A stretch of DNA of 64,000 bases from assembly GCF_014692675.1 (NCBI RefSeq), contig NZ_JABFCZ010000019.1, positions 1 through 64,000 on the forward strand, in the 5' to 3' direction. The DNA is from Roseibium aggregatum. Lineage in GTDB: Bacteria > Pseudomonadota > Alphaproteobacteria > Rhizobiales > Stappiaceae. Position numbers and translations under genes: made by a program. Under the pieces are notes generated by a model. It made no database searches. It was not told the origin of the DNA and was given only the letters and a program-made list of their open reading frames with translations. Positions 114-14,615 of this stretch are shown one piece after another; positions within the stretch are counted from its first letter, which is position 1; the number at the start of each line of letters is the position of its first letter.

Positions 114-1205
114 GCCGCTACAGCTATAGGCGCTGCTCGATGGGAGGCCGTCGCATTCGTCGATCACGATGCCCGATAGCAGGCCCTTCTGCTGGTAGAG
201 CTTGTGCAGGGATCGCAGCATCTCCTCGTCGCTCAAACGAAACGAGCGCGCGTTGATGATGGTTCTCGCCGCCTCGAACAGCTCGCGCTCGACGACGGCC
301 TGAAACACATCCTGCGCCCTGATCCACATCTCGGGCTCATTGGCGACGCGCTTCTTCTTGAGCTTGAAGGAGCGACGATTCCAGACGTTGTCGCCGACAT
401 ATTTCTCGTTGATCAGAATCTGATGGACCGTGCCCCGGGTCCAAGGACGCCCAAGATCGGTCGGAACGCCGCGTTGATTGAGATCGTCCGCAATTTCCCG
501 CTCGCTGTATCCTCGATGGACGAAAGCCCGGTAGATGCTGCGAACCAGATCGACCTCTTCGGCAGGGCCAAGCGTCAGGATCACCCGATCTGTCTGAATG
601 CTCTTGTGCTCGCCCCGTTCGAGAAGCCCCTTGATGACGCCATGCTCGTCAATCAACGTCCGGCGCAGGCCGAAGCCGGCGGGCCCGCCCTGGCGGTAGC
701 CCTTCTCGATCAGCCGGCCCTGGCCGGCGAACACCTTGGTTGAAAGCTCGCGGCTGTATTCGCCAGCCATCGCTCGTTTGACGCCCTTGACGATAGTCGA
801 AATCGGGCTGCCGTCATTGTCGAATTGCTCGGCGCAATATTCGACGGCGATGCCGGCGCGCCGACAAATATACTCGTAGTAGGCGCTTTCGTCGGCGTCC
901 TGGAAGCGCCCCCAGCGGCTGACATCATAAACGAGCACCAAAGTGAAATCGGTGCTGCCCGATTGCACGTCCTCGATGAGTTGCCTGAGCGCGTCGCGCC
1001 CCTCGATCTTTAGCCCGCTTTTTCCAGCGTCTTCATAGGTTCGCACGATCTCGATTCCACGCGCCTCAGCATATTGCTTGATCGCGTCGGATTGGTTTTC
1101 GGTCGAATACTTCTGATGATCCGTCGACATGCGGACGTATTCGGCAGCCCGAAGTGGACGTTCAGGGTGCCCTGACCGGTCATCATCGTAAACTCTCCGG
1201 CTCAT
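102..1205 (-). CDS. Large serine recombinase, C-terminally truncated
   Basis: Site-specific recombinase of the resolvase/invertase superfamily. The N-terminal catalytic domain (about residues 18-165) carries the nucleophile motif YVRMSTDHQKYS, putting the catalytic serine at residue 27. A Recombinase DNA-binding domain follows (about 175-290, with GGPAGFGLRR and the GYSEREIADDLNQRG helix). I start at the ATG at 1205 rather than the upstream ATG at 1265, because the longer N-terminus is Pro/Gly-rich and unlike the family. Relatives with this architecture are usually 500-700 residues, with a zinc ribbon and coiled coil; here the frame ends at about 367 residues, soon after DGLPSSSAY. The last codons (about 102-135) look like foreign sequence joined on, so the gene is probably broken and the enzyme inactive. 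It marks the island as mobile DNA. The family call is firm; truncation is inferred from recalled family length. Confidence 0.8.
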   Translation of the reverse strand: MSRRVYDDDRSGHPERPLRAAEYVRMSTDHQKYSTENQSDAIKQYAEARGIEIVRTYEDAGKSGLKIEGRDALRQLIEDVQSGSTDFTLVLVYDVSRWGRFQDADESAYYEYICRRAGIAVEYCAEQFDNDGSPISTIVKGVKRAMAGEYSRELSTKVFAGQGRLIEKGYRQGGPAGFGLRRTLIDEHGVIKGLLERGEHKSIQTDRVILTLGPAEEVDLVRSIYRAFVHRGYSEREIADDLNQRGVPTDLGRPWTRGTVHQILINEKYVGDNVWNRRSFKLKKKRVANEPEMWIRAQDVFQAVVERELFEAARTIINARSFRLSDEEMLRSLHKLYQQKGLLSGIVIDECDGLPSSSAYSCSGLPT

Positions 1206-1379
1206 CACATGACGCCCTCCTGAAATCGGCTGCGGCGGTCCGGGCGACCTACCGCCGCAGCGCATGACGGGCCTGTGCCGCGACTCCGCAATGAAACCAG
1301 TCTAACTGCGGAGAAAACGGAAGATGTTGCCGAAAACGGGCAGGAAATTACCCCAATGGAGAGAGCACAATCCCTTTGG

Positions 1380-1432
1380 GTGAGGCTTCGGCCTCACTTC
1401 CCGGCGGCTCGGGCGCGGCGCAGTCGCGCCGC
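1380..1432 (-). terminator. Tandem hairpins downstream of the VIT/ATPase operon
   Basis: Two perfect hairpins lie 100-150 bases past the VIT stop codon. One is a 7-bp stem with a TTCG tetraloop (1380-1397); the other is GCGGCGC-AGTC-GCGCCGC (1415-1432). Neither has a clear T-tract on the minus strand, so this is a possible end of transcription. Apart from these, I see nothing between 1206 and 1531. Confidence 0.35.
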
Positions 1433-1531
1433 CAGGTCTACCTTTGGCCGCGTAATCGGCGATGCCGATCCGAGGAACGCAGCGCTGCGAGCTGCCTTTG
1501 CCTGTAGTGTCATCACTCCAGGCGGTTCTTC

Positions 1532-2233
1532 TTATCCGACTGTGACCCCAAAGATTGATCCGACCAGCGCGGTCGCGGCCATGGCAAGGGCACCCCAGAA
1601 CGTCACTCGGACAGCGCCTCGCAGGATGCCGGCGCCGCCAGCGGTCGCGCCAAGACCGCCCAGGATGGCGAGCGACAGGAGTGTCGCGATGGCTACGAAC
1701 GGCACAATTTGCGCTGGCGGAGCAAGCATGGCCACCAGAAGCGGGACCACAGCACCCACGGCAAAGGTCATGGCGGAGACAAGGGCCGCTTGGATCGGAT
1801 GAGCGGTCACCGTCTCGGATATGCCCAGCTCGTCGCGGGCGTGGCTGCCAAGGGCATCGCGGTCGGTGAGCTGGACGGCCACCTGTTCGGCCAAATCGCG
1901 GGTCAGCCCGCGCGCCTCGTAGATTCGGGTCAGTTCCTCGAGTTCGGCATCAGGCGTCTCTGCAAGCTCCTTCTTCTCGCGGGCAAGGTCGGCCTGCTCG
2001 GCATCGGTCTGCGAACTGACCGAGACGTATTCGCCCGCCGCCATCGACATCGCTCCAGCGACCAGCCCGGCGAGGCCCGCGATCAGCACCTCCGTCCGCC
2101 CTGTGCCGGCTGCGGCGACGCCCACGACGAGGCTGGAGGTTGAGACAAGGCCATCATTCGCGCCGAGCACCGCCGCGCGCAACCAGCCGATGCGGTGCAC
2201 CATGTGGATTTCGGAATGGGACAGGCGGCTCAT
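1532..2233 (-). CDS. VIT1/CCC1-family Fe2+/Mn2+ transporter
   Basis: Predicted integral membrane transporter moving ferrous iron or manganese out of the cytosol. The 233-residue protein has the VIT family opening (HRIGWLRAAVLGANDGLVS, residues 13-31). A first transmembrane pair ends in AGAMSMAAGEYVSVSSQ, then comes a charged cytosolic segment rich in Glu/Asp/Lys (about 75-125), which in this family binds metal, and then three C-terminal membrane segments. Its ATG overlaps the stop codon of the upstream P-type ATPase gene by four bases (ATGA), so the two are almost certainly translationally coupled. The pairing suggests two parallel routes for removing a divalent metal, most likely iron or manganese. 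The family is secure; the exact metal is inferred. Confidence 0.9.
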   Translation of the reverse strand: MSRLSHSEIHMVHRIGWLRAAVLGANDGLVSTSSLVVGVAAAGTGRTEVLIAGLAGLVAGAMSMAAGEYVSVSSQTDAEQADLAREKKELAETPDAELEELTRIYEARGLTRDLAEQVAVQLTDRDALGSHARDELGISETVTAHPIQAALVSAMTFAVGAVVPLLVAMLAPPAQIVPFVAIATLLSLAILGGLGATAGGAGILRGAVRVTFWGALAMAATALVGSIFGVTVG

Positions 2234-4119
2234 GCGGGAATTCCTTCAAAACGGGTTTGCGGTGCTGTGAGGCCCGCGGGTGAAATGCGCAGGGCGCGCA
2301 GCGCGTTCAGGATAACGGCGACGTCGATGGCTTCCTGCAGCAGCGCGCCCTGAACGGGGGTCAGGTAGCCGAAGGCCGCAGCGATCATGCCCAGAACCGA
2401 CAGGCCGATGCCTGCGACCACGCTTTCAAGCGCGATCCGGCGCGACCGGCGGGCGATCTCGATCCCCGGCGCGATGCGGTCCACCCGGTCCACCAGCAAG
2501 ACCACATCGGCCGCCTCGGCACTTGCCGCCGCCCCGCGTGCGCCCATGGCGACGCCCACATCGGCGGCAGCCAGTGCGGGCGCGTCGTTGACGCCGTCGC
2601 CCACCATCATCACCGGACCGTTCTTGTGCTCGGTCAGGACCAAGAGCACCTTTTCATCTGGCGTCAGCCCCGCGCGGATGCCGTCAAGGCCAAGCCCTTC
2701 CGTTACCCGCGCCGCAACCTCGGCCCGGTCTCCGGTGGCCAAGAGGATGCGCGCAACCCCTTGCCGCCTCAGGCTGGCCAGCATCTCGGCTGCCCCTTCG
2801 CGGAGGGGGTCGGACATGACCAGATGCCCCGCCAAACGACCATCGAAGGCCACGGCCACCATGACCGACCCTGCCGCCAGTTCCGGGTGATCACCCGACA
2901 AACGGCCCACACGCTCCGCGACGAAACCATCGCCCCCGACGATGACCTGCCGTCCGTCGATGAAACCGATGACGCCTTCGCCCGGGATTTCAGCCACATC
3001 TTCGGGGATGGGTAGGGTGAGCCCCCGGTCCCTTGCTGCAGCCACGATGGCCTGCGCGACGGGGTGTTTTGATGCCTGATCCAGCGCCGCAGCATAGCGC
3101 AGGATGTCGTCAGCCCCCATCCCGTCATGGCTGTCGATACTGACGATCTGCGGGCGCCCGTCGGTCAGCGTGCCGGTCTTGTCGAGGATCAGGGTGCGGA
3201 TGCGGGCCATCGCCTCGAGGGGTTTGGCCCCCTTCACCAGCACCCCGAAATGCGCCGCCCGGCTCAGCCCGGCCACCAGCGCCACCGGCACGGCCAGGAT
3301 CAGGGGGCAGGGCGTCGCCACGACCAGCACCGCCACCGCGCGGATCGGATCGCCGGTAAACCACCATGCGGCAAAGGCGATGGCAACGGTGACGGCCAAA
3401 AACCCCAGCGACCAGCGATCAGCCAGCCGCGCCATGGGTGCTTTCGACGCCTGCGCCGCCTCGACCAGCCGGACGATCCCGGCATAGGTGCTGTCCTTCG
3501 CCTCGCGCGTCGCCTCCAGATCAAAAGCATCACCGGCATTGGTCGATCCGCTCATCGCCTCAGACCCGCGGTCGAGCCGCACCGGCAAGGATTCACCCGT
3601 CAGCGCCGATGTGTCGACGAAAGCCGCGGCGGATGCGATGCGCCCGTCCACCGGCACGACATCGCCTTGCCGGATCAGCAGCCGGTCGCCAGGCGCGATG
3701 TCTTCCAGTGCCACCTCCTCCAGCCCGCCATTGCGGTGGCGCGTGGCGGTGCGGGGCACGCGCGACAGAAGATCGCGCATCTCGCGCCGCGCGCGACCCT
3801 CGGCAAAGCTTTCGAGGAAGGTGCCGCCCGAATACATCACGGCCACGACCGCCGCCGCCAGCGTCTCGCCAAAGGTCAGGGCGGCCGACATCGACAGGGC
3901 GGCGACGATATCGAGGCCTACTTCTCCGCGCGCGAGGCTGCGGAGGATCTCAATGACCAGCGCGGCCAACACCGGCACGACGCCCGCGAACCAGACGGTC
4001 TGCGCCAGGTCGGAGCGCCCGCTGAAATGCAGCCCGAGCCCTGTCACCAGACCGGCCAAGGCGATGACGAGGAGCAGGGTCTTGAGCCTGTCTGTCTGAG
4101 CACGATCCAAAGGTTTCAA
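2230..4119 (-). CDS. P1B-type heavy-metal ATPase with TPC membrane motif
   Basis: ATP-driven transition-metal exporter of 629 residues. All catalytic motifs are present: TGES (184-187), the phosphorylated Asp313 in DKTGTLT, the nucleotide-binding His-Pro in SKHPVAQA, and GDGVNDAPALAAADVG. The membrane metal site is ATPCPL, TPC at 269-271, instead of the CPC of copper and zinc pumps. TPC is the signature of the P1B-5 group, whose rhizobial member Nia exports Fe and Ni, but that group usually has a C-terminal hemerythrin domain, absent here. There is no N-terminal metal-binding domain. The gene overlaps apbE upstream and the VIT gene downstream by four bases each. Iron, nickel or manganese is the likely substrate by context; this is inference. 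Confidence 0.9.
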   Translation of the reverse strand: MKPLDRAQTDRLKTLLLVIALAGLVTGLGLHFSGRSDLAQTVWFAGVVPVLAALVIEILRSLARGEVGLDIVAALSMSAALTFGETLAAAVVAVMYSGGTFLESFAEGRARREMRDLLSRVPRTATRHRNGGLEEVALEDIAPGDRLLIRQGDVVPVDGRIASAAAFVDTSALTGESLPVRLDRGSEAMSGSTNAGDAFDLEATREAKDSTYAGIVRLVEAAQASKAPMARLADRWSLGFLAVTVAIAFAAWWFTGDPIRAVAVLVVATPCPLILAVPVALVAGLSRAAHFGVLVKGAKPLEAMARIRTLILDKTGTLTDGRPQIVSIDSHDGMGADDILRYAAALDQASKHPVAQAIVAAARDRGLTLPIPEDVAEIPGEGVIGFIDGRQVIVGGDGFVAERVGRLSGDHPELAAGSVMVAVAFDGRLAGHLVMSDPLREGAAEMLASLRRQGVARILLATGDRAEVAARVTEGLGLDGIRAGLTPDEKVLLVLTEHKNGPVMMVGDGVNDAPALAAADVGVAMGARGAAASAEAADVVLLVDRVDRIAPGIEIARRSRRIALESVVAGIGLSVLGMIAAAFGYLTPVQGALLQEAIDVAVILNALRALRISPAGLTAPQTRFEGIPA

Positions 4120-5096
4120 ACTCCGATGGCCGTGGCCGTCGCCGCGGTCTTGTTCAAAAATAGTTTTCCGACGCCAATGCCCTGCACGCCACCCGCATCA
4201 TCGCGCTTGAGGAACAGCGCGTCGAGCCCTGCCTGCCGTGCCAGGTTTGCGCCTGCCTCGACCCCCGTCACCATCAGGGCCGTCGCCCAGGCGTCGGCCT
4301 CGGCGCAGGTCGGCGCGATCACGGTGACGGATGCGGGCGGGGCAAGAAGCGGTGCGCCGCGCCTTGGGTCCATTGTATGGGACAGATCACGCCCTTGCAC
4401 CGTGACCCAATGGCGGTAGTCGCCCGAAGTGGCCACCGCGGCATCCTGAAGCGTCAGGATGGACTGGGGCGCGCGGCGGGCGCGCTCGGGCGCCTCGACC
4501 GCGATGGTCCAGGCCCTCCCGTCCGGGCGCAGGCCTAGGGCACGCATCTCGCCGTCGATGCCGACCAGTGCATCGCGGATGCTGTGGGCCGACAGGACCT
4601 GCGTCAGACGATCCACCCCGTAGCCCTTGGCGATGCCGTTCAGGTCCAGCGAGATGGGGGCACTCTTGCGCACCCGGTTGCCGTCCAGTTCCAGCGCCTC
4701 ATGGGCCGGGCGGCGGGGGGCCTGCATTGCGTCGTGAATGGCTTGCGGATCGGCTGCTGCCGGGCCATAGCCCCAGGCGCGCACGGCATCGCCCATGCCG
4801 ATGTCGAAGGCCCCGCCCGACACGCGACCGATGGCAAGCCCAAGCTCCAGCACGCGCGCCAGATCGGCGGGGATGTCCTGCCATTCCCCCACCGGCGCGG
4901 CGTTCAGGCGCATCAGGTCGCTGTCGGGCTTCCATGTGGACATTTGGCCATCGACCGCATCCACCGCCGCCTGCAGGTCTGCCTGCACCATGCCGGGGTC
5001 GAACTCCGGCGGGGCAAAGAACAGCGCGCTCCACCGTGTGCCCATGGTCGGGCCGTTCAGGGCGTGGCGGATCAGGTTAGTAGACATCTTCGACAT
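4116..5096 (-). CDS. FAD:protein FMN transferase ApbE
   Basis: ApbE transfers FMN from FAD onto a Ser/Thr of extracytoplasmic redox proteins. The 326-residue protein has the family landmarks in order: GPTMGTRWSA (15-24), MSTWKPDSDLMRLN, GGAFDIGMGDAVRAWGYGP, SLDLNGIAKGYGVDRL, the Mg-site region VATSGDYRHW and SHTMDPRRGAP, then APTCAEADAWATALMV. No lipoprotein Cys or clear signal peptide is seen at the chosen start; export would need a different start or another route, and I cannot settle this. It overlaps the PepSY/flavodoxin reductase gene by 20 bases and the P-type ATPase gene by four. The likely target is the DUF2271 protein two genes upstream, which has an NGITGAS motif. Confidence 0.93.
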   Translation of the reverse strand: MSKMSTNLIRHALNGPTMGTRWSALFFAPPEFDPGMVQADLQAAVDAVDGQMSTWKPDSDLMRLNAAPVGEWQDIPADLARVLELGLAIGRVSGGAFDIGMGDAVRAWGYGPAAADPQAIHDAMQAPRRPAHEALELDGNRVRKSAPISLDLNGIAKGYGVDRLTQVLSAHSIRDALVGIDGEMRALGLRPDGRAWTIAVEAPERARRAPQSILTLQDAAVATSGDYRHWVTVQGRDLSHTMDPRRGAPLLAPPASVTVIAPTCAEADAWATALMVTGVEAGANLARQAGLDALFLKRDDAGGVQGIGVGKLFLNKTAATATAIGV

Positions 5097-7278
5097 AACG
5101 CCCCTCGGCCTTGAGCATCGCGGGCGTCAGGCCCATCGGTGCAAGGATATCTTCCAGCGCGCGACCCACGCCTTGCGCCATGCCACGCCCGCCGCAGACC
5201 ATGACCCTTGCGCCGTTGCGGATCGCCTCGGCCACCTGCGCGGCCTCGGCCCACAGGGCATCCTGCACATAGTGTGGCCGCGCCCCGCGCGAGACGGCGG
5301 TGGAGAGCCGCGTCAGCCGCCCCTCTGTCTGCCATTCCGTCAGATCGTCGCCATAAAGGAAGTCGCTGTCCGGGTGTCGCATCCCGAAGAACAGATGCAC
5401 CGGACGACGACGGGCGTTGGCGCGAATGATCCCGGCCAAGGGTCCGATCCCGGTGCCCGCACCGATCAGGATCAGGGGCACCCGACCCCGCCCGGCATGG
5501 AAACCTGGGTTGCGACGCAGGAAGGCCTGCACGGCGTCACCCGGTTCCAGCGTCAGCAGCTGGCCAGAACAAAGGCCGCCCGGATGCTTCTTCACTACGA
5601 TCTCGACAAACCCGTCCCCGCTGCCCGATGCCAGGGAGTAGAAGCGCGGGAGGGACGAGCCTTCGGGCAGGATGCCCAGAAGGTCGCCCGCCTGAAACCG
5701 TGCGAAACCCCGGCTCGTCAGCCGCGCCCAGTGGGTCGCTTTTGGCAAGGCAAAGCGCATGATCGCGGTCGGGGCCTGCACGGCCTCGCCATAGTCACGG
5801 CGGGAGATGAGGGTCAGGCCTTGCGCCTCGGGGCGGGCGGGCTGGTGATCAAGGTCGAGCGTCAGCCCGATGGCCTGCCCCAGCGCCCGGCCCCAGCGGG
5901 CGAAGTCCTGCGGCGACTGGCGGTCCACTGTGTCCATGGGCAGGAGGGTGGCCCAGCCGTTGGCGCGTGCGGTGGCCTCAACCTCTGCCGCATAGGCACA
6001 GAAGGCCGGGAAACTGCGGTCACCGAAGCCTAGCACGGCGAGGGCCGCGGTCGGGGGCATGCGCGCCAGCCGGTCGAGGAAGCCTTGCGCGGACGCGGGC
6101 GCGTTGCCTTCGCCATAGGTGGCGGCCAGGATCAGGAACCGCTCCGCCCGTGGGTGGCGCGCGGGGTCAAAGGCCGACATCGGCGCGATGTGGACCGCCT
6201 GACCTGCATCCCGCAGGGCACGCGCCAGCGTCGCGGCGAAGCCCCAGGTGCTGCCGCCTTCGGAGCCGACAAGGATCACCGTCTGCGCCCGGCCCGCGGG
6301 CGCATTGTCGCGCAGCCGGGGCCGACCCCGCCGTCCAGCGGCCCAGATCAATGTGCCGGTTGCCCCCATCACCGGGACGCTGAGCGCGATCAGGCCGAGG
6401 ACCAGCCCGAAGGTCGCCGCACCCTGACCGGTGTGCAGCATGTAGACGGTTTCCGAGACCTGCTGCCATGGCGTCAGGTCCGCCCAGGACAGAAGTTCGC
6501 CGGTCCCCTGATCGATCAGGCCGGTGCCTGCATCGGTGGAGAGGGTGAACATATCCTGCGCATCGCCTGCATAGGGAAAACTCAGCTTGCGCAAGGCGTC
6601 GACAGGCACATCCTGCAGCGCGGCCATCTGGTCCAGCGGGAAGGCCATCTGTCCGCTGACCACCGCAGGGTCGGCGGGGCGTGCCGCCCCATCGGGCAAG
6701 AGGTCAAAGGTTGATGCTGTCATCCAGAGCGCGGTGGCCGCCGACAGGGCAAGGCCCAGGACGGCGACGCGCGCCAGTTCCACATGCAGACGCCCGGCCA
6801 GAGGCCCGCGCAGCCGCGCGAACCAGCGCCGCCAACCGCCTGTGCGCCGCGCGACCAGCGCCGCCCCCGACAGGGTCAGCACCAGCATCGCGGCAGCGCC
6901 CGCCGCCATCACCAACCGCCCGGCATCGTCCAGAAACAGCGACCGGTGGAGGTTGGTCAGCCAGCGTTCCACCCCGTTCGGATCGGCCGAGCCGACGTCG
7001 GCGCCGGTTGCCGGGTCGATCACCGCCGATCCGGGCCTGCCGCCGTCGAACCACCAAGCGGTGATGGTGCCCGAGGGGGACCGGCGGATTTCTTCCAGCC
7101 CCGGGTGGGTGGCGGCCACGCGGGCGGCCAGATCCGCCACGCTTTGCTCTGCGACGGCCTGCGGGGCGGCCAGCCGTTCGGCCATGGGAAAGACCGACAG
7201 CGCCGCACCGCTAAGTGCGAGAACGGTCACAAGAACAAGGGCCAGAAGCCCCGGCCAGCGATGCAGCGCGCGGATCAT
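5077..7278 (-). CDS. PepSY-TM / flavodoxin / FAD-NADPH reductase fusion
   Basis: Predicted membrane-bound NAD(P)H oxidoreductase passing cytosolic electrons across the inner membrane. Of 733 residues, the first 330 are a PepSY-associated membrane region (segments near 8-30, 120-142, 165-185, 305-328) with conserved-looking histidines in ALHRWPG, TNLHRSLF, GRLHVEL and YMLHTGQG that could hold heme. Then come a flavodoxin domain (VGSEGGSTWGFA; AATYGEGNAP), an FAD site (RFYSLASG), an NADPH-binding loop (GAGTGIGPLAGII) and a C-terminus resembling sulfite reductase flavoproteins (GRYVEDVY). The gene starts 12 bases after DUF2271 and overlaps apbE by 20 bases. The domain order fits bacterial iron-uptake or extracytoplasmic reductases; the final acceptor is unknown, with the neighbouring DUF2271 protein the best candidate. 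Confidence 0.88.
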   Translation of the reverse strand: MIRALHRWPGLLALVLVTVLALSGAALSVFPMAERLAAPQAVAEQSVADLAARVAATHPGLEEIRRSPSGTITAWWFDGGRPGSAVIDPATGADVGSADPNGVERWLTNLHRSLFLDDAGRLVMAAGAAAMLVLTLSGAALVARRTGGWRRWFARLRGPLAGRLHVELARVAVLGLALSAATALWMTASTFDLLPDGAARPADPAVVSGQMAFPLDQMAALQDVPVDALRKLSFPYAGDAQDMFTLSTDAGTGLIDQGTGELLSWADLTPWQQVSETVYMLHTGQGAATFGLVLGLIALSVPVMGATGTLIWAAGRRGRPRLRDNAPAGRAQTVILVGSEGGSTWGFAATLARALRDAGQAVHIAPMSAFDPARHPRAERFLILAATYGEGNAPASAQGFLDRLARMPPTAALAVLGFGDRSFPAFCAYAAEVEATARANGWATLLPMDTVDRQSPQDFARWGRALGQAIGLTLDLDHQPARPEAQGLTLISRRDYGEAVQAPTAIMRFALPKATHWARLTSRGFARFQAGDLLGILPEGSSLPRFYSLASGSGDGFVEIVVKKHPGGLCSGQLLTLEPGDAVQAFLRRNPGFHAGRGRVPLILIGAGTGIGPLAGIIRANARRRPVHLFFGMRHPDSDFLYGDDLTEWQTEGRLTRLSTAVSRGARPHYVQDALWAEAAQVAEAIRNGARVMVCGGRGMAQGVGRALEDILAPMGLTPAMLKAEGRYVEDVY

Positions 7279-7290
7279 CGGTTCGTCCCC

Positions 7291-7758
7291 TTACTGATAG
7301 ACGAAGCTGGCGATGTAGCGGCGGCCCTGCACGGCCACGCCCGCACCCGCTGTCGTCAGCGGCACCGCGATCTCGTTGGGGCTGTCGCGCATGTCCTCGA
7401 CCGCCGCATCGATGTGGAGCGTGTAGCCCGCATCGAACAGCGCATCAGCGAGATCCAGCGTGATCTCGAGCGTCCGGCCCGCGCCCACGCTGGCCCCGGT
7501 GATCCCGTTGATCTGGGCAGGGTCGCCCCCGGTGGCGGCATACCAGTCGCTCAGGTGCTCGTAGTATTTCGACTTGCCGCCCGCCATCCACAGGCTGCCG
7601 ACATAAGCGCCCGCGGCATCGGTGACATACAGCGCCAGATAGGCGCCATCGCCGCCATAGCTGTTCATCGTGGTGGTCAGTGTCACGGGCCGGGCCATTG
7701 CCAGCCCGGGCAGGGTCAGCGCGGTGGTCAGGGCAAGCGTCGCGAGAAGGGATTTCAT
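7291..7758 (-). CDS. DUF2271 periplasmic protein, predicted flavinylated
   Basis: 155-residue exported protein with a clear Sec signal peptide (MKSLLATLALTTALTLPGLA, likely cleaved after AMA at 22). The mature part is a DUF2271 beta-sandwich-like domain (SLWMAGGKSKYYEHLSDW; ALFDAGYTLHIDAA). At 84-90 it has NGITGAS, close to the ApbE consensus D-x-x-[ST]-G-A-[TS]; the flavin would attach to Ser90. DUF2271 genes commonly sit with PepSY-TM reductases and apbE, as here, so I read this as a flavin-carrying periplasmic electron shuttle. It lies 59 bases downstream of the Asp-rich protein gene with no visible terminator between, so it may be read from the same promoter. DUF2271 membership is fairly sure; flavinylation is a prediction. 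Confidence 0.82.
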   Translation of the reverse strand: MKSLLATLALTTALTLPGLAMARPVTLTTTMNSYGGDGAYLALYVTDAAGAYVGSLWMAGGKSKYYEHLSDWYAATGGDPAQINGITGASVGAGRTLEITLDLADALFDAGYTLHIDAAVEDMRDSPNEIAVPLTTAGAGVAVQGRRYIASFVYQ

Positions 7759-7817
7759 CGGATGTCCTTTCGGTGATGATCTGCGCCCCGCATGGGCAGG
7801 GCGCGCGAGAACCGGGA

Positions 7818-8192
7818 TCAGTTGGTCACGGCCACGGGCGGCGCGCCGTTGCCGAAGAGCCCATTTGCCGGGGGTGCGACGGTGCCTGCGGGCGCAGGGT
7901 TGCCGAGGGTGCCGGCGCAGTCATCATCATCATCATCATCATCGTCGCAGTCCTCGTCGTCATCATCGTCCTCGTGCCCGCGACGGAACCATCCGCCGTC
8001 ATCATCGTCGTCATCGTCTCCGCTTACACGGATGAGGGGCACGGGCTGGCCGTCCGCGTTGAACACGGCTTCGCAAACGCCGCTGCACGCATTTTGGGCG
8101 CTGCCTTGGGTCTGCATCGCGGCGAGGGCCGGCAGGCCGAGAGCCGCTGCGAGCGCCGTCGATGCGAAAAGAAGGGAAAGTCGGGATGTCAT
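7818..8192 (-). CDS. Secreted Asp-rich low-complexity protein
   Basis: Small exported acidic protein of about 124 residues. A signal peptide (MTSRLSLLFASTALAAALGL) is followed by a short segment with two cysteines (NACSGVCEAVFNADGQPVP), then runs of 5-9 aspartates broken by GGWFRRGHE and two cysteines, and a Pro/Gly/Ala-rich tail. The start at 8192 has AGGAG at good spacing. The Asp runs are coded by GAT/GAC repeats (visible as ATC runs at 7921-7943 on the plus strand), which are prone to length change. Such tracts bind Ca2+, Fe or other cations, suggesting periplasmic metal buffering or sensing, which is inference. A regulator box (8270-8285) lies 78 bases upstream of the start codon. Confidence 0.75.
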   Translation of the reverse strand: MTSRLSLLFASTALAAALGLPALAAMQTQGSAQNACSGVCEAVFNADGQPVPLIRVSGDDDDDDDGGWFRRGHEDDDDDEDCDDDDDDDDDCAGTLGNPAPAGTVAPPANGLFGNGAPPVAVTN

Positions 8193-8269
8193 GCATGGTC
8201 TCCTTGGATCTGATGCTGGCAATCTGGGCGCCGGACCTGAGCCGTTCCTGACGCCATCCCGCTTTCTGC

Positions 8270-8285
8270 TTCAGCTTGGCGTCAG
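8270..8285 (+). promoter_or_regulatory. Response-regulator box C (TTCAG-N6-GTCAG)
   Basis: TTCAG at 8270-8274 and GTCAG at 8281-8285 form a direct repeat with an 11-bp period, typical of OmpR/PhoB-family regulators. It is preceded by TTTCTGC, as in box B. The minus-strand gene starting at 8192 is 78 bases away. Confidence 0.65.
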
Positions 8286-8319
8286 GAAGAAAAAGGCCCC
8301 GCCGAGACAGGGCGGGGCC
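8286..8319 (-). terminator. Rho-independent terminator of the 8414-8623 gene
   Basis: GGCCCCGCC (8295-8303) pairs perfectly with GGCGGGGCC (8311-8319) around a 7-base loop. On the minus strand the stem is followed by TTTTTCTTCC. It ends the transcript of the small acidic-tail gene and sits immediately before regulator box C, separating the two transcription units. Confidence 0.85.
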
Positions 8320-8413
8320 AGTCGGACCACGAGGGACAGGCGTGGTCGGAGAACGGGGTCAGGCGATGTTGCCGGGCATGGAGGGATGGGTTGATGCGGA
8401 CTTGCGGGGCATC

Positions 8414-8623
8414 TCAATCGTCATCGTCGTCGCCCTGATCCGATGTCTGTTGCGTCGCCAGATCGGCACCCGCAGGCGTGGCCGCAGTGTCGCCGGGCTG
8501 CGCCGGTGCCGTGACGGTGGCTGGCGCAGTGCCGGGTCCGCGACCAAGGGCTGTCAATGTGGGCGCGGCAAGGACCGCGATAACGGCGGCAGTTGCGAGC
8601 AAAACGAGAATTGTGGATTTCAT
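8414..8623 (-). CDS. Small exported protein with Asp5 tail
   Basis: 69-residue protein with an N-terminal hydrophobic segment (MKSTILVLLATAAVIAVLAA) acting as signal peptide or anchor, a Pro/Ala/Thr-rich linker and the C-terminus DQGDDDDD. It has a good ribosome site (AGGAG, 8 bases before the ATG), its own promoter box (8701-8716) and its own terminator (8286-8319), which makes it convincing as a gene despite its size. I know no named family. The acidic tail resembles those of the two neighbouring exported proteins, suggesting a shared cation-binding role at the cell surface. Confidence 0.7.
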   Translation of the reverse strand: MKSTILVLLATAAVIAVLAAPTLTALGRGPGTAPATVTAPAQPGDTAATPAGADLATQQTSDQGDDDDD

Positions 8624-8667
8624 GGCGGTAGCTCCTTGATTGGATGAACCGATTCTGTCGTGTGCCG

Positions 8668-8682
8668 CTGAAGCCTTGCTGA
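8668..8682 (-). promoter_or_regulatory. Weak reverse-oriented regulator half-site pair
   Basis: CTGA at 8668-8671 and at 8679-8682 are spaced by 11 bp. Read on the minus strand this gives TCAG-N7-TCAG, like the stronger boxes but in the other orientation and with a less conserved core. It lies about 45 bases upstream of the 8623 start and could be a secondary site. Confidence 0.3.
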
Positions 8683-8700
8683 TGGGACGCCGGTTTCTGC

Positions 8701-8716
8701 TTCAGCCTGGTGTCAG
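8701..8716 (+). promoter_or_regulatory. Response-regulator box B (TTCAG-N6-GTCAG)
   Basis: TTCAG at 8701-8705 and GTCAG at 8712-8716, 11-bp period, again preceded by TTTCTGC. The TTCAG end is 78 bases upstream of the minus-strand start at 8623, the same spacing as box C. Confidence 0.65.
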
Positions 8717-8790
8717 AAAACACGCGCCCTAACCTCATGCCGGGCACAGGCCGGAACCGATTGTACACCCGGTTCCGGCACGGCTGCGTG

Positions 8791-10203
8791 TCAGCGCAGT
8801 TCGAACGCTTCGGAGTAAACGCGGCGCGGCGCATGGCCCATCGCCTTGAGCCCGTTCTGGATGCCGTCGCGCAACCCGCAGGGCCCGCAGAAGAACAGCT
8901 CCGACCCGGCGATCTCGAAGGGCACCATCGCGACCAGGCGTTCGGCCGTCAGTCGCCCCTCGGTGCGGCTGGCCACGACCTGCACGCTCAAGCCCGGATG
9001 ACCTGCGGCGATGGCTTGCAGACGGTCGGCGGCAAAGGCTTCGTCCTGGGTGTTCACGGCCCAGATCAGCGCGATCTGCTGGCGGTCTGCCTCGGTCAGC
9101 GCCTCGGCCCATGCCAGGAAGGGTGTGATGCCGATGCCTCCCGCCAGCCAGACCTGACGCGGCACCCGGCGTCGGAACAGGAACCGGCCATAGGGCCCCT
9201 CAACGCGCAGCCGCTGGCCCGGCACCAGCTTGTCCGGCAGGCTGCGCGTCCAATCCCCCAGCGCCTTGATCCCGAAATGCAGACTGCCATCGGCGCGCGG
9301 GGCCGAAGCGATGGTAAAAGGATGCGCCTCGTCAAGGCCAGCGCCGGGGCCCGAGCCGGGAACCGAGACAAAGGCGAACTGGCCAGGACGCCAGCGCATT
9401 CCGCGCCCTGTGGGCCGCAAGGCAATCTCGGTCGCAGCACCGTGTCGCGTGACGGAGTCGAGCGCATAGTCGCGCGGGCGCAGAAAAGGGTTGATGAACT
9501 GCGTGAACACCCAGGCCACCAGCCCCGCAAGGCTGAACGTGTTGAGGTAGAGCGCCAGCATCGGGTCCACCCCTTCGGGCTTGTCGATGGCCAGTTGGTG
9601 AAACGCGGCAATCGCGAACAACAGCCCCATGAACCGGTGCGTGAAACGCCACAAGGGCCAGGGCAATTCCAGATTGGTGAAGGGAACCCGCTTGATCCAG
9701 CTGATCGCGATCAGCGCGATGAACCCGTAGAAGGCAATTTCTCCGACCTCGGCGGCGAATTCGCCAAGGTTGGTTTCTGCCACAAAATCCTCGATCTCCG
9801 GTTCAAGCTGGTCATGCAGGACCATCAGCCCCAAGGCCGCGATCCCCAGCCACTTGTGGACGGCATACATGCGATCCAGCCCGCCGAAGAACGGTTCGAT
9901 CACAGCCGGGCGCGCCGACAGTACCAGGGCTATGCCCATGGCCACAATCGCGGCGGACCCGACCGCGATGCTCATGGCGGACTCGATGCCGAACGGGGCA
10001 TAGGTTTGCGCGCCAAGGGCGGCGCCTAACAGAACGGCGATGGCGGCAAATGCCGGACCGGAATACAACATGTCAGAAAACCTTCCGTTCGGGCCGACTT
10101 GAGGAATGGTACCCGGCGTCACAGGGGACTGGTCGTGGGCCCGGCGCTGTGGATCTCGCCCTGTCACCGTGGCCTTTTCATGCACGGAAACATGGTCAGT
10201 CAT
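8791..10203 (-). CDS. Ferric reductase/NOX-like transmembrane flavocytochrome
   Basis: 470-residue membrane oxidoreductase predicted to move electrons from cytosolic NAD(P)H through FAD and two hemes to the outer face. The membrane half has two histidine pairs: His116-x13-His130 and His189-x12-His202, the spacing of the bis-heme site in NADPH oxidases and ferric reductases. The C-terminal half is a ferredoxin-reductase module with an FAD site (HPFTIASAPR) after RPGQFAFVSV, a nucleotide loop (LAGGIGITPFLAW) and a terminal FFCGPCGLRDGI. I start at 10203: the frame is open further upstream, but only through sequence antisense to or overlapping the PepSY gene, and this ATG overlaps that gene's stop by 8 bases. 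Co-transcribed with the PepSY protein under box A. Acceptor (Fe3+, Cu2+, oxygen or a periplasmic flavoprotein) unknown. Confidence 0.85.
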   Translation of the reverse strand: MTDHVSVHEKATVTGRDPQRRAHDQSPVTPGTIPQVGPNGRFSDMLYSGPAFAAIAVLLGAALGAQTYAPFGIESAMSIAVGSAAIVAMGIALVLSARPAVIEPFFGGLDRMYAVHKWLGIAALGLMVLHDQLEPEIEDFVAETNLGEFAAEVGEIAFYGFIALIAISWIKRVPFTNLELPWPLWRFTHRFMGLLFAIAAFHQLAIDKPEGVDPMLALYLNTFSLAGLVAWVFTQFINPFLRPRDYALDSVTRHGAATEIALRPTGRGMRWRPGQFAFVSVPGSGPGAGLDEAHPFTIASAPRADGSLHFGIKALGDWTRSLPDKLVPGQRLRVEGPYGRFLFRRRVPRQVWLAGGIGITPFLAWAEALTEADRQQIALIWAVNTQDEAFAADRLQAIAAGHPGLSVQVVASRTEGRLTAERLVAMVPFEIAGSELFFCGPCGLRDGIQNGLKAMGHAPRRVYSEAFELR

Positions 10204-10504
10204 CTTCCTGTCCTTCGCGGTCGCGACCGTGGTCGTCATCCTCGAATTCGAATTCGACGATCTGCAGCGTGCCGGGATGCAGCTTGACCTCGATCGCGCG
10301 GCCCGTCGCGTCGCGGCCGTCGATCTCGTAGCAGCCGTCGTCGATCTTGATGCGGCGCACCTCCCAGCCTTGCCGGGTGGCGAACTCAGCCACCGCCTCG
10401 CGCGGTTGCCAGTCGGCCATCGGAACGAAGCAATCATCATCAGCCAGTGCGGCACCGGCAGGCAGGGCTGCCAGAAAAGCAAGAATTGTCAGCGTCTTTC
10501 GCAT
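10196..10504 (-). CDS. Exported PepSY-domain protein
   Basis: 102-residue protein with a signal peptide (MRKTLTILAFLAALPAGAALA) followed by one PepSY-like domain (QPREAVAEFATRQGWEVRRI; EIDGRDATGRAIEVKLHPGT) and an acidic tail (FEFEDDDHGRDREGQEDD). This is the common small PepSY protein seen beside two-component systems and membrane cytochromes in Rhodobacterales. I prefer the ATG at 10504 over the GTG at 10513 because GGAG lies 8 bases upstream. Its stop overlaps the flavocytochrome start, so the two form an operon. The domain may bind metal or modulate the neighbouring reductase; its precise role is unknown. Confidence 0.85.
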   Translation of the reverse strand: MRKTLTILAFLAALPAGAALADDDCFVPMADWQPREAVAEFATRQGWEVRRIKIDDGCYEIDGRDATGRAIEVKLHPGTLQIVEFEFEDDDHGRDREGQEDD

Positions 10505-10555
10505 GGGCCACACTCCGGGTTACGGCCAGTCTGGATGATGTGATGCGCGCCGAAG

Positions 10556-10571
10556 CTGACGGCAGCCTGAA
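10556..10571 (-). promoter_or_regulatory. Response-regulator box D, facing the two-component genes
   Basis: On the minus strand this reads TTCAG-GCTGCC-GTCAG, with 11-bp periodicity (plus strand CTGAC at 10556-10560, CTGAA at 10567-10571; a further CTGA at 10577). It is the mirror orientation of boxes A-C and lies 86 bases upstream of the plus-strand regulator start at 10657, predicting autoregulation. Confidence 0.6.
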
Positions 10572-10588
10572 GACGGCTGATCCAGGGC

Positions 10589-10604
10589 TTCAGCCTGCTG
10601 TCAG
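10589..10604 (+). promoter_or_regulatory. Response-regulator box A (TTCAG-N6-GTCAG)
   Basis: TTCAG at 10589-10593 and GTCAG at 10600-10604 within the divergent promoter region. The orientation is the same as boxes B and C relative to the minus-strand gene it should control, 85 bases upstream of the PepSY start at 10504. Confidence 0.65.
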
Positions 10605-10656
10605 GAGAGAGGGTCAGAAGCAAACCAACCCGGGGCCAAAGGGACGGCAGAAGACC

Positions 10657-11316
10657 ATGCGCATCTTGCTGATCGAGGATGATACAGTTCTGGGAGCTGC
10701 CGTGCGGGACCAGATAGCCGCCGATGGCCATTCGGTCGACTGGGTCCAGCGGCTGGATGCGGCCGGGGACGCGATGGCCGGGGCGAGCTTCGATCTTGTG
10801 CTGCTGGACCTGATGCTGCCCGATGGCCGGGGCATTCCGTTTCTGCGCCGTCTGCGGGCCAAGGGCGATGTGACGCCCGTCATCATCCTGACCGCGCTTG
10901 ACCAGATCAGCGACCGGATCGAGGGGTTGAACGCAGGGGCCGACGACTACCTGGTCAAGCCCTTCGATCTGGCGGAACTGTCCGCCCGGATCGGCTCGGT
11001 GGCGCGCCGCTATGCGGGGAACCCCAACCCAATTGTCACCCACGGGCCGCTGGAGATCGACCTTGCTGCGCGCAGCATCCACCGCGACGGCCGCCCAGTC
11101 GCCCTGACGGCACGCGAATGGGCGCTGTTCGAGGCCTTTCTGTCCCGGCCTGGGCAGCTTCTGTCCAAGGCGCAGCTTGAGGACAAGCTTTACGCCTTTG
11201 GGGCCGAGATCGAGAGCAACACGATCGAGGTCCATCTCAGCCGACTGCGGAAGAAGTTGGGGGCGGAGGTGATCGAGACGGAACGCGGCCTCGGCTACCG
11301 TCTGGGCCGGGCATGA
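10657..11316 (+). CDS. OmpR-family response regulator
   Basis: 219-residue transcription factor. The receiver domain (1-115) has the acidic pocket IEDD (6-9), phospho-acceptor Asp51 in LLDLMLPDG, and the Thr/Lys pair in ILTALD and DDYLVKPFD. A winged-helix DNA-binding domain follows (about 125-219; LTAREWALFEAFLSRPGQLL, then IEVHLSRLRKKL). The ATG at 10657 gives the standard family N-terminus MRILLIEDD. It resembles QseB/TctD/PmrA-type regulators. Its stop overlaps the sensor kinase start by four bases. Four 11-bp-period boxes around this locus are its likely targets, including one in its own promoter. Confidence 0.93.
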   Translation: MRILLIEDDTVLGAAVRDQIAADGHSVDWVQRLDAAGDAMAGASFDLVLLDLMLPDGRGIPFLRRLRAKGDVTPVIILTALDQISDRIEGLNAGADDYLVKPFDLAELSARIGSVARRYAGNPNPIVTHGPLEIDLAARSIHRDGRPVALTAREWALFEAFLSRPGQLLSKAQLEDKLYAFGAEIESNTIEVHLSRLRKKLGAEVIETERGLGYRLGRA

Positions 11317-12656
11317 GGGCGCCGCGCAGTCTTCAGGGTCGCCTTGGGCTCTGGCTGGGCGTGGCGCTGACGGTTCTTTGGGTGCTCGCGGCCAGCGTGA
11401 CGGCGCTGATCGCGCGGAGCGAGATCGAAGAGGTGTTCGATTCCGCCCTGCAGGAAACCGCACAGCGCATCCTGCCACTCGCCGTCGTTGATATCCTGAA
11501 CCGCGAGGAAGCAGGGATCAGCCAGCGTCTTGCCGCCATCCGCGAACATGACGAGTTCTTCACTTACATCGTGCGGGATGATCAGGGGCGCATCCTGCTG
11601 CAATCCCATGCCGCCGACCCGGGCGTGTTCCCCGCCTGGGAAGGGATCGGGTTCCACCAGATTGCAACGCATCGGCTCTATAGCGACGAGGCTGTGCAGG
11701 GCACGATCCGCATCACTGTGGCCGAGCCGCTGGACCATCGCGCAAGCGTCGCGCGCGAGATTCAGATGGGGCTTGGCCTGCCACTTCTGATCTTGCTGCC
11801 CGTGGCGCTTCTGGCCATCGTGCTGGCCGTCCGCGCCAGCCTTGCGCCCCTGCGCCAGTTCCGCGACCGCCTGTCGGCGCGGGGCGCGCGCGACCTGAGC
11901 CCCGTCGCCAGCGCCGATCTGCCCACCGAAATCGCGCCCCTCGCCGATACGATGAACGGACTTCTGGGGCGGCTGGAGGCGGCCTTCGAGGCGGAGCGAA
12001 GCTTTGCAGCGAACGCCGCGCATGAACTCCGCACCCCGCTGGCAGGTGCCATCGCACAGGCACAACGGCTGCAGACAGAGACGCGCGACGCTGACGCCAA
12101 GGCCCGTGCGGCCGAAATCGAGGCCACGCTGAAACGCCTGACCCGCCTCTCCGAACGCCTGTTGCAACTGGCGCGCGCTGAAGGTGGTCGCCTTCGCCGT
12201 GACGTCGCTGCCGATCTTCGCCCCGTGGCCCGACTGATCGTCGACGACCTTGCGCGCGGTGGCGAGCCCGGGCGCATCCACCTCGCGCTTCCGGACAGCG
12301 CTATCATGTCGGATCTGGACCCCGACGCCTTCGCGATCGTCTTGCGCAATCTGATCGAGAATGCCTTGCGCCATGGCCAAGCCGAAGCTCCTGTGGAGGT
12401 CTCGCTTGCAACTGACGGAACGCTGATCGTCGCCAACGACGGCCCGGTCGTGCCCGCCGAGGATCTCGCACGCCTGACGCACCGGTTCGAGCGCGCCCGG
12501 TCCGATCGCGAGGGCAGCGGTCTTGGGCTGGCAATTGTCGCGACGATTGCCGAGAGGTCTGGCAGTCAATTCGAACTCAGATCGCCTCGCGAAGGCCGGG
12601 CTTCAGGGTTCGAGGCACGACTATCACCGACCGGAACACGCGTTCTGAATTCCTAG
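11313..12656 (+). CDS. Membrane sensor histidine kinase
   Basis: 447-residue partner of the preceding response regulator. It has a first membrane segment (about 12-34), a periplasmic sensor loop (about 35-150) of the two-component sensor N-terminal type seen in QseC/TctE, a second membrane segment (about 153-172) and a HAMP-like linker. The DHp helix has phospho-acceptor His237 in NAAHELRTPLAG. The ATPase domain has the N box (NLIENALRHG) and G boxes (EGSGLGLAIV). Start and stop overlap the regulator gene as ATGA. The periplasmic loop is rich in Asp/Glu/His (IREHDEFF, HAADPG), so a metal or redox signal is plausible. That signal is inferred from the neighbouring reductases and metal transporters, not seen in the sequence. 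Confidence 0.92.
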   Translation: MRAPRSLQGRLGLWLGVALTVLWVLAASVTALIARSEIEEVFDSALQETAQRILPLAVVDILNREEAGISQRLAAIREHDEFFTYIVRDDQGRILLQSHAADPGVFPAWEGIGFHQIATHRLYSDEAVQGTIRITVAEPLDHRASVAREIQMGLGLPLLILLPVALLAIVLAVRASLAPLRQFRDRLSARGARDLSPVASADLPTEIAPLADTMNGLLGRLEAAFEAERSFAANAAHELRTPLAGAIAQAQRLQTETRDADAKARAAEIEATLKRLTRLSERLLQLARAEGGRLRRDVAADLRPVARLIVDDLARGGEPGRIHLALPDSAIMSDLDPDAFAIVLRNLIENALRHGQAEAPVEVSLATDGTLIVANDGPVVPAEDLARLTHRFERARSDREGSGLGLAIVATIAERSGSQFELRSPREGRASGFEARLSPTGTRVLNS

Positions 12657-12757
12657 CGAGAATGGATCAGGCTTTACGCCTTGATTCGAAGGCATTTCTC
12701 GCGCGCAGTACTCGGCTGGTTGCGTATCGACCGAGTGGCGAACGCATTTGGGCTGGA

Positions 12758-13078
12758 TCAGTTGATAGCCAAATCGGTCGCCGTTTTCCCAGCAGCCAAC
12801 GCCTCCACGAACCACTGCGGTTTGCGCCCGCGACCGGACCAGGTGAGTGCCGGGTTCTCAGGGTGCCGGTATTTCGCCGCGACAGGCGCACGGGAGGCTT
12901 TCGTCTCGGTTCCGTCAAGTTCGGCCAGAGAGTAGCCCAGATCCCGGGCGAGAGCTTCCACCTTGGCGCGGGCTTCCGCCTTCTGCCGATCCTCGAATGT
13001 GGAGATCGCCTTGGCGACGTCCTTCTGCATTTTCTTCAGCTCGCCAAGCGACAGTGCCTCGAGTTCGTAATCAGCCAT
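12758..13078 (-). CDS. H-NS family nucleoid-associated protein
   Basis: 106-residue DNA-binding protein. The N-terminal half is a charged coiled-coil oligomerisation region (LGELKKMQKDVAKAISTFED); the C-terminal half holds the H-NS DNA-binding motif TWSGRGRKPQW (about 82-92), preceded by KYRHPENPAL. I start at 13078 (MADYELE); the frame is open upstream but that part is low-complexity and unlike the family. Alphaproteobacterial relatives include HvrA/Spb-type regulators. H-NS copies carried on plasmids and islands often silence newly acquired DNA, which fits its place here; that role is inferred. Confidence 0.9.
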   Translation of the reverse strand: MADYELEALSLGELKKMQKDVAKAISTFEDRQKAEARAKVEALARDLGYSLAELDGTETKASRAPVAAKYRHPENPALTWSGRGRKPQWFVEALAAGKTATDLAIN

Positions 13079-13972: not shown

Positions 13973-14071
13973 TTCGTGGCATGCGTACGGCAAGCCGTGT
14001 AGCAGGACATCGGCACAGTTTGACAATCTTTGCCAATTTATGTCATCGTCCTTGCAAAGGAGATCGCGACC

Positions 14072-14326
14072 ATGGCCACGATGAATGTTTCTTTGCCGGA
14101 CCCGATGAAGGCCTGGGTCGAGGCCCAGACACAAGATGGGCGCTACAGCAACGCCAGCGATTATGTGCGCGATCTGATCCGCCGGGACCAGGATCGCCAG
14201 CAGGCCATCGTCGAGTTGCAGCAGCTTGTCGATGAGGGTCTCGCAAGCGGTCCGGCAGGACGTCTGGATGTTGAGGCATTTCTTGCCCGCAAGCGGGATC
14301 AGAATGCCAGAACCGACGGTCGTTGA
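14072..14326 (+). CDS. ParD-family antitoxin
   Basis: 84-residue ribbon-helix-helix protein (MATMNVSLPDPMKAWVEAQT; SNASDYVRDLIRRDQ) with a flexible C-terminus that would wrap the toxin. AAAGGAGAT precedes the ATG at 14072, supporting this start. The RHH half binds operator DNA and represses the operon; the C-terminal half (about 45-84) neutralises ParE. It overlaps the toxin gene by 23 bases in another frame, the usual arrangement. Intact as far as seen. Confidence 0.92.
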   Translation: MATMNVSLPDPMKAWVEAQTQDGRYSNASDYVRDLIRRDQDRQQAIVELQQLVDEGLASGPAGRLDVEAFLARKRDQNARTDGR

Positions 14327-14615
14327 ATATCGCCTATCACCTGCTGCGCTGAATGATCTGGACGCGATCTGGGATTATACCGCGCGTACCTGGTCAGTTG
14401 GTCAGGCAGAAACCTATATCCGCGGGCTCGCCGTGGACATGGACCTGCTGGTCCAGCACCCGGGGATCGCGCGCGAACGCACTGAAATCCGCCCGCCCGT
14501 GCGCCTTTACCGCTCGGGATCGCATCTGATCATCTACCGCATCGAGGAGGAGTGGCTGCAGGTGTTGCGCATCGTGCATGCGCGACAGAATTGGGTCGCC
14601 TATCTCAACGAGTGA
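14304..14615 (+). CDS. ParE-family toxin
   Basis: 103-residue RelE/ParE superfamily toxin (VVEYRLSPAALNDLDAIWDY; YIRGLAVDMDLLVQHPGIAR; LYRSGSHLIIYRIEEEW; VLRIVHARQNW). ParE toxins poison DNA gyrase. The start at 14304 gives the family N-terminus and a 23-base overlap with parD. No disabling change is seen, so the pair is probably functional and would stabilise the island. A long hairpin lies just downstream. Confidence 0.92.
   Translation: MPEPTVVEYRLSPAALNDLDAIWDYTARTWSVGQAETYIRGLAVDMDLLVQHPGIARERTEIRPPVRLYRSGSHLIIYRIEEEWLQVLRIVHARQNWVAYLNE

Follow-up and report, generated by a model that had tools for sequence, protein, structure and literature searches.

The first 64,000 nucleotides of contig NZ_JABFCZ010000019.1 of Roseibium aggregatum (NCBI RefSeq assembly GCF_014692675.1), in the following called the window, contain a module in which a two-component system with an OmpR/PhoB-family regulator adjoins genes for flavin-dependent redox and metal-transport functions. 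At the four promoters of this module we find a composite of two converging boxes, which, as judged from the DNA sequence, is a real, well-conserved and locally confined operator-like element. Probably, the PmrA/BqsR-like regulator of the module would activate its own operon as well as the flavin-dependent extracytosolic redox/metal module via this element, using a PhoB-like proximal site and a helically phased distal site.

An exact pattern search finds TTCAG-N6-GTCAG at 8270-8285 (+), 8701-8716 (+), 10556-10571 (-) and 10589-10604 (+), which are the four copies named in the original prediction, and with up to one mismatch the motif occurs 10 times in the window vs. 2.66 times (standard deviation 1.68) over 100 shuffles, none of which reaches 10. 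The start codons of the module lie at 8192 (-), 8623 (-), 10504 (-) and 10657 (+), and the measured distances from box to start of 78 base pairs (bp) for 8192, 78 bp for 8623, 85 bp for 10504 (box 10589) and 86 bp for 10657 (box 10556) agree with the predicted range of 78-86 bp. All four copies face their genes in the same orientation only when the two boxes between the divergent genes are assigned crosswise, each to the gene farther from it. What had been taken as the operator, a single box 78-86 bp upstream, is instead one half of a unit of two converging boxes, and the promoter-proximal boxes of the 8192 and 8623 promoters (8237-8252, 8668-8683) were absent from the predicted set. In coding-strand direction, the order of elements at each promoter is box A (CTGAC-N6-CTGAA), N17, box B (kTCAG-N6-kTCAG), N10 and a hexamer, and the operator unit is a 49-bp mirror pair of two direct-repeat boxes with 33 bp between the first bases of A and B. 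The sites and hexamers in the window are as follows:

8270-8285, minus strand: distal box A of the 8192 promoter, exact, with the coding-strand sequence CTGAC-GCCAAG-CTGAA
8237-8252, minus strand: proximal box B of the 8192 promoter, GTCAG-GAACGG-CTCAG, degenerate, 1 mismatch from kTCAG-N6-kTCAG
8221-8226, minus strand: -10-like hexamer CAGATT of the 8192 promoter, 10 bp past box B
8701-8716, minus strand: distal box A of the 8623 promoter, exact, with the coding-strand sequence CTGAC-ACCAGG-CTGAA
8668-8683, minus strand: proximal box B of the 8623 promoter, ATCAG-CAAGGC-TTCAG, degenerate, 1 mismatch from kTCAG-N6-kTCAG
8652-8657, minus strand: -10-like hexamer CAGAAT of the 8623 promoter, 10 bp past box B
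10556-10604, no strand: symmetric operator common to the divergent promoters, both boxes exact
10615-10620, plus strand: -10-like hexamer CAGAAG of the regulator promoter, in which the second base fits and the last does not
10540-10545, minus strand: -10-like hexamer CATCAC of the 10504 promoter, a weak match placed by the same geometry

In total, three composite operators with six boxes stand at four promoters, because box 10556-10571 is box A for 10657 (+) and box B for 10504 (-), and box 10589-10604 vice versa. Composites at all four promoters bear out the assumption that one operator is common to the module, including the adjacent OmpR/PhoB-family regulator. The predicted 11-bp repeat of PhoB/OmpR type was likewise recovered, as the predicted sites consist in sequence of two direct half-sites of 11-bp period, of the kind used by PmrA, BqsR and PhoB. 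All four exact boxes read CTGAC-N6-CTGAA, and the CTTAA/TTAAG pentamers of the PmrA/BqsR box do not occur in them.

Conservation and specificity of the paired boxes

Relatives of the regulator were found via conserved peptides, and the best 80 of at least 556 loci, together with the window, its paralogue (L018) and three plasmid loci (L030-L032), give 85 upstream regions; L033, where sites of this kind occur too, is not counted among them. With up to one mismatch, box A is present on the coding strand in 78 of the 85 regulator upstream regions and exact in 62, so that the conservation at homologous loci that had been set beforehand as a test of the prediction was indeed found. Spacers of 3, 4, 5, 7, 8 and 9 bases yield 0, 0, 3, 0, 0 and 0 of the 85 regions, respectively, the reversed box has no match in them, and 50 shuffles of the 85 regions give a mean of 0.52 and a maximum of 2. 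At 85% identity, 58 of the 78 regions with box A are still distinct. An inverted partner with up to two mismatches follows box A in 71 of the 85 regions, at a spacing of 33 bp (53 loci), 34 bp (12), 42 bp (4), 44 bp (1) or 51 bp (1), and the interbox bases 18-30 are near background conservation across the 85 regions. On the regulator tree, which is weakly supported in places and whose bootstrap had not converged, spacing 34 corresponds to five changes, of which three or more are forced, and spacings 42/44 belong to one clade; the spacing has therefore shifted repeatedly, either by a single base or by roughly one or two turns of the helix. The operator is found in Rhodobacterales and Rhizobiales as well as in four Burkholderiales loci and one Pseudomonadaceae locus, several of these being metagenome bins.

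Moreover, the pair recurs at other promoters. Of the 65 exact copies of box A not located at the regulator start, 45 have a box B at 33/34 bp with up to one mismatch and 6 more with up to two, compared with 0.075% of 20,000 random positions reaching a B within one mismatch of kTCAG-N6-kTCAG. A regulator frame follows in 68 of 204 composite readings; the others are, by eye, mostly followed by PepSY_2, aspartate-rich (Asp-rich) or DUF2271 genes, along with some spurious frames and one reading without a frame. The Pfam check of downstream genes identified three DUF2271 pieces, one PepSY_2 piece and two proteins of contig C47, which is described below. In L098 and L103 (Devosia) and in L154-L157 (same genus) the regulator is directly divergent from a DUF2271 gene with the composite in between (two by Pfam, the rest by eye). 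Across 45 congener genomes, the regulator is present at E <1e-80 in eight, and the composite at 0-1 mismatch occurs in the same eight and in none of the other 37. Two-mismatch composites only were found in nine other congeners, including G019, which has a 48% identical regulator on another contig, and the reversed-pattern control matches in two of the 45.

In the genome of the strain itself (5.66 megabases, Mb), exact single boxes occur 17 times, four in the window, two on contig C47 and 11 elsewhere, and the reversed-pattern control has four copies; 11 background copies in 5.66 Mb correspond to about 0.12 per 64 kilobases. The composite was searched with the second box as NTCAG-N6-NTCAG and up to three mismatches, which returned 15 rows. 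Ten of them, with up to two mismatches, fall in five places, three in the window and two in C47; the remaining five rows, all with three mismatches, fall in four places and look like background, and the reversed-pattern control for the composite has no match in this genome. As the composite pattern was written after the window and C47 had been seen, it is the absence elsewhere that is informative. A wide regulon of single boxes was considered and rejected, since none of the 11 exact boxes outside the modules has a B partner in the three-mismatch search. One of these 11 overlaps the end of a short-chain-dehydrogenase-like frame (C119, by eye), three lie within frames of clear coding composition, and seven have no decisive coding signal either way.

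Contig C47 (L018) carries at 7231-10862 a second, paralogous regulator-kinase/PepSY module, whose regulator is 82% identical to that of the window. It comprises a kinase (by eye), PepSY_2 and cytochrome b561 proteins (Pfam) and an Asp-rich protein (by eye), with the cytochrome b561 in the place of the ferric-reductase-like protein of the window, and its composites lie between the divergent genes and before the Asp-rich gene. Because the C47 module has the same operators, the two systems would probably share targets, and cross-talk between them is likely.

Promoter position and alternative readings

The position of the promoter can be deduced from the base composition past box B. In deduplicated composites with A and B each within one mismatch, taken on both strands, the 12th base past B is an adenine in 117 of 132 cases at spacing 33, 7 of 9 at 34, 2 of 2 at 42, 3 of 4 at 44 and 2 of 2 at 51. 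This conserved base moves with box B and not with box A, which means that the hexamer keeps its place relative to B. In the class II geometry of PhoB, the tandem box replaces the -35 element and ends 10 bp before the -10 element. Box B, without a -35 element, has this PhoB-like layout, the -10 element being assigned by conservation, and no TTGACA-type promoter was found in 1200-12900, which is weak evidence alone as only 1.1 were expected. Transcription would accordingly be expected to start near 8214, 8645, 10533 and 10627, giving leaders of about 20-30 bases. Face-to-face overlapping promoters in which each gene is driven by the far box alone were also considered and rejected, because the -10-like base is tied to the near box both ways.

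In such an arrangement one regulator dimer would occupy each tandem box of 11-bp period. RNA polymerase would be recruited by the dimer on B, which takes the -35 position as with PhoB, and this dimer would be stabilised cooperatively by the one on A, on nearly the same helix face. The symmetric divergent operator could thus drive the regulator-kinase operon and the PepSY/ferric-reductase-like operon together, which would amount to positive autoregulation. At the 8623 and 8192 promoters A is exact but B degenerate, and a less ready response with a higher threshold may therefore be assumed for the Asp-rich and flavinylation genes. It is also conceivable, though we put it forward tentatively and with somewhat more reserve than conviction, that the composites represent an operator class of their own, in which two direct-repeat boxes are mirrored at phased spacing (33/34, 42/44, 51 bp), the promoter is fixed to the near box and the dimers stand face to face as a bidirectional cooperative switch. 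OmpR/PhoB-family regulators are usually described with direct repeats only. If such a class exists, the architecture goes beyond the single or tandem-only boxes of PmrA, BqsR and PhoB, extends over a wide clade and controls flavin-dependent extracytosolic redox modules.

Several observations weigh against activation from a paired operator. Box A is absent from 7 of the 85 regulator upstream regions (L089, L095, L104, L105, L111-L113), L089 and L095 having a one-mismatch copy on the opposite strand only, and A stands without B in seven more (L090, L091, L096, L099, L101, L102, L106), so that the pair appears to be dispensable in some lineages. Two of the loci with a 33-bp spacing have a second pairing at 22 bp. 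Of the 65 exact A boxes outside the regulator start, 14 lack a B at 33/34 bp; five of these are one stretch in the near-identical L067-L071, eight lie in the Mesorhizobium set L107-L110, four of these eight having a B at 44, and one is in L105. The two spacing-57 rows (L038) have no -10-like base (0 of 2) and look like chance pairings. In L090 and L096 a -10-like hexamer lies, by eye, near +58 of A without any B, which fits poorly with a promoter anchored to B. In the window, 10504 and 10657 have weak hexamers (CATCAC and CAGAAG, respectively), and box B at the single promoters deviates at its outer or inner first base. Furthermore, the relatives are close kin and some rows identical, since they were found through conserved peptides and the best 80 kept; the -10 tally counts symmetric operators in either direction and is restricted to pairs near the consensus from the outset; and the co-occurrence in congeners is partly trivial, as box and gene are adjacent, which leaves the absence from the other 37 as its informative part.

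In one alternative reading box B would be a repressor site, with activation coming from the distal A (centre near -61, presumably class I) and high phosphorylation filling B over the -35 region and shutting the promoter. In the window, both single promoters combine an exact A with a degenerate B; of the 62 readings not at the regulator start in which both boxes are within one mismatch, 45 have an exact A and 15 an exact B; and L090 and L096 retain A and the hexamer without B. However, the -10-like base holds its distance to B and not to A as the spacing varies, B sits where PhoB-type activating sites lie, and no TTGACA-type -35 element was found in 1200-12900, so that we consider this unlikely. 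An equally improbable alternative is that the boxes act singly, each as the operator of one dimer, with the pairing resulting solely from overlapping divergent promoters and the B boxes of single promoters being relics of duplicated divergent promoters. The 7 of 85 regulator promoters with A alone would agree with this, as would BqsR, which acts from one pentamer pair, with extra pentamers being additive and not essential (PMC4682146). Yet the B core is kept within one mismatch at 45 of 65 non-regulator promoters while bases 18-30 are near background, and the pairs are spaced at 33/34, 42/44 and 51 bp, save for the two loci also at 22. That another OmpR-family regulator of the cell binds the operator is very improbable, for although similar boxes occur across the family and the 82% identical C47 paralogue has the same operators, the 0-1 mismatch composite occurs in all 8 of the 45 congeners with this regulator (E <1e-80) and in none of the 37 others, and in 71 of 85 loci it stands at the promoter of the regulator itself. 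Activation through a proximal B and a distal A remains the preferred reading.

Genes of the module and related systems

The module consists of the following genes and one terminator-like feature:

1532-2233, minus strand: VIT1-family transporter (Pfam)
2230-4119, minus strand: heavy-metal translocating P-type ATPase (cadmium family model above its cut-off)
4116-5096, minus strand: ApbE flavin transferase (Pfam)
5077-7278, minus strand: PepSY_TM-flavodoxin-reductase protein (Pfam)
7291-7758, minus strand: DUF2271 protein (Pfam)
7818-8192, minus strand: Asp-rich protein with a signal-peptide-like N-terminus, no Pfam family
8295-8319, minus strand: intrinsic-terminator-like hairpin, 9 G-C pairs followed by TTTTT, between 8421-8623 and the 8192 unit
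8421-8623, minus strand: small protein with an Asp-rich tail and a signal-peptide-like N-terminus, no Pfam family
8791-10203, minus strand: ferric-reductase-like transmembrane protein with FAD/NAD domains (Pfam)
10196-10504, minus strand: small PepSY_2 protein (Pfam), N-terminus signal-peptide-like by eye
10657-11316, plus strand: OmpR/PhoB-family response regulator, PmrA/BasR-like (Pfam Response_reg and Trans_reg_C)
11313-12656, plus strand: QseC/PmrB-like sensor histidine kinase with a 2CSK_N sensor region

Terminator-like sites number 11 in 1200-12900, where 6.4 are expected, and that at 8295-8319 is the strongest. Given this hairpin, the 8192 unit presumably requires a promoter of its own; box A (8270-8285) lies directly past the hairpin. 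The claim that every transcription unit of the module is covered is plausible insofar as the hairpin splits 8421-8623 from 8192; for the genes 7758-1532, co-transcription with 8192 is taken from gene spacing only. The proteins of 7818-8192 and 8421-8623 carry Asp runs and are candidate periplasmic metal buffers.

The regulator has a receiver and a winged-helix Trans_reg_C domain by Pfam. Its best NCBIfam profile is PmrA with 201.4 bits vs. a cut-off of 330, QseB scores 189.2 vs. 345, and its closest solved relatives are BasR/PmrA (8jo2, 4s04); by its sequence it is a relative of PmrA and QseB and not a member of either equivalog. PmrA also uses head-to-tail half-sites of 11-bp period (PMC3973317), but its half-sites read CTTAAT/CCTAAG and those here CTGAC/CTGAA. 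Among four residues suggested to recognise bases in PmrA (PMC3973317), H193 is kept here, and H195, N196 and E199 are replaced by S, R and K. A tie between recognition-helix residues and box type is only suggestive: L111 and L113 have neither the S-R pair at 195-196 nor the box, but S-R is present without the box in L104, L105 and L112, and the box occurs together with A-R in L090, L091 and L096. The regulators of L104, L105 and L112 have a near-identical recognition helix with no CTGAC box upstream.

The small PepSY_2 protein at 10196-10504 beside kinase and regulator is the gene arrangement of DbfQRS/BqsPQRS-type modules. In Pseudomonas aeruginosa, BqsR of the BqsRS/CarRS system binds TTAAG-N6-TTAAG, where spacers of 5 or 7 cut expression below 10% (PMC4682146). 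The operator described here resembles this box in its two pentamers with a 6-bp spacer, and BqsR also has a downstream pentamer over the -35 region (PMC4682146); likewise, small PepSY genes lie beside the regulator-kinase pair (PMC12714742). It differs in its pentamers, CTGAC/CTGAA instead of CTTAA/TTAAG, in that the extra pentamers of BqsR repeat with the same 6-bp spacer (PMC4682146), whereas the second box here is complete, inverted and placed at a fixed distance, and in its number, with 432 candidate operators at up to 2 mutations for BqsR (PMC4682146) and a composite limited to two modules here. In DbfQRS of Vibrio cholerae a small PepSY protein adjoins kinase and regulator as well, and PepSY-kinase-regulator neighbourhoods are widespread, some on opposite strands; yet the role reported for DbfQRS is in the biofilm lifecycle, and a text search of that paper gave no passage on an operator (PMC12714742). 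Taken together, the operator would work like those of BqsR, PmrA and PhoB, but is by sequence distinct in its pentamers and its inverted second box. In the open-access literature we found no paper on this motif and, by title and abstract, nothing on a converging OmpR-family operator, an absence that is not proof. The mirror pair with phased spacing provides a model, open to experimental test, of how OmpR/PhoB-family regulators could activate cooperatively in two directions.

ApbE, DUF2271 and PepSY_TM proteins occur together in the module, which by Pfam and gene content is the composition of PepSY-like flavinylated systems, in which a PepSY-like protein, ApbE, DUF2271 and partly VIT1 are found and DUF2271 is reported as a family of ApbE flavinylation substrates (PMC8238504). 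These systems are broadly present in Gram-negative bacteria, and their function is little known; in Shewanella and Caulobacter they are repressed by Fur (PMC8238504), whereas here a two-component system is part of the cluster. A sharply defined operator would thus be a handle on flavinylated systems, as it names the regulon and predicts transcription starts and which promoters answer first.

The DUF2271, ApbE, PepSY_TM, VIT1, heavy-metal ATPase and Asp-rich proteins point to metal or redox stress as the signal. Such a signal at the QseC/PmrB-like kinase would lead to phosphorylation of the regulator, and the output would be an Asp-rich, flavin-dependent redox and metal-transport module. BqsS senses Fe(II) (PMC12666569). 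A BqsS-type metal motif in the kinase found no support in the conservation: in an alignment of 79 kinases, with columns of at least 70% taken as conserved, only the last E of the REHDE run (77-81) lies in a conserved column. Since the first R and E of the run are unconserved, the metal or redox signal of the kinase is one that we infer.

A large serine recombinase, weakly CcrB-like, adjoins the module at 102-1265 of the window, and at 14030-14615 two small overlapping frames resemble, by eye, a toxin-antitoxin pair of ParD/ParE type. DNA similar to parts of the module occurs in 81 plasmid records, none of which covers 80% of it; 52 of the 81 are typed conjugative, mostly Rhodobacterales by name, and the module may therefore be mobile.

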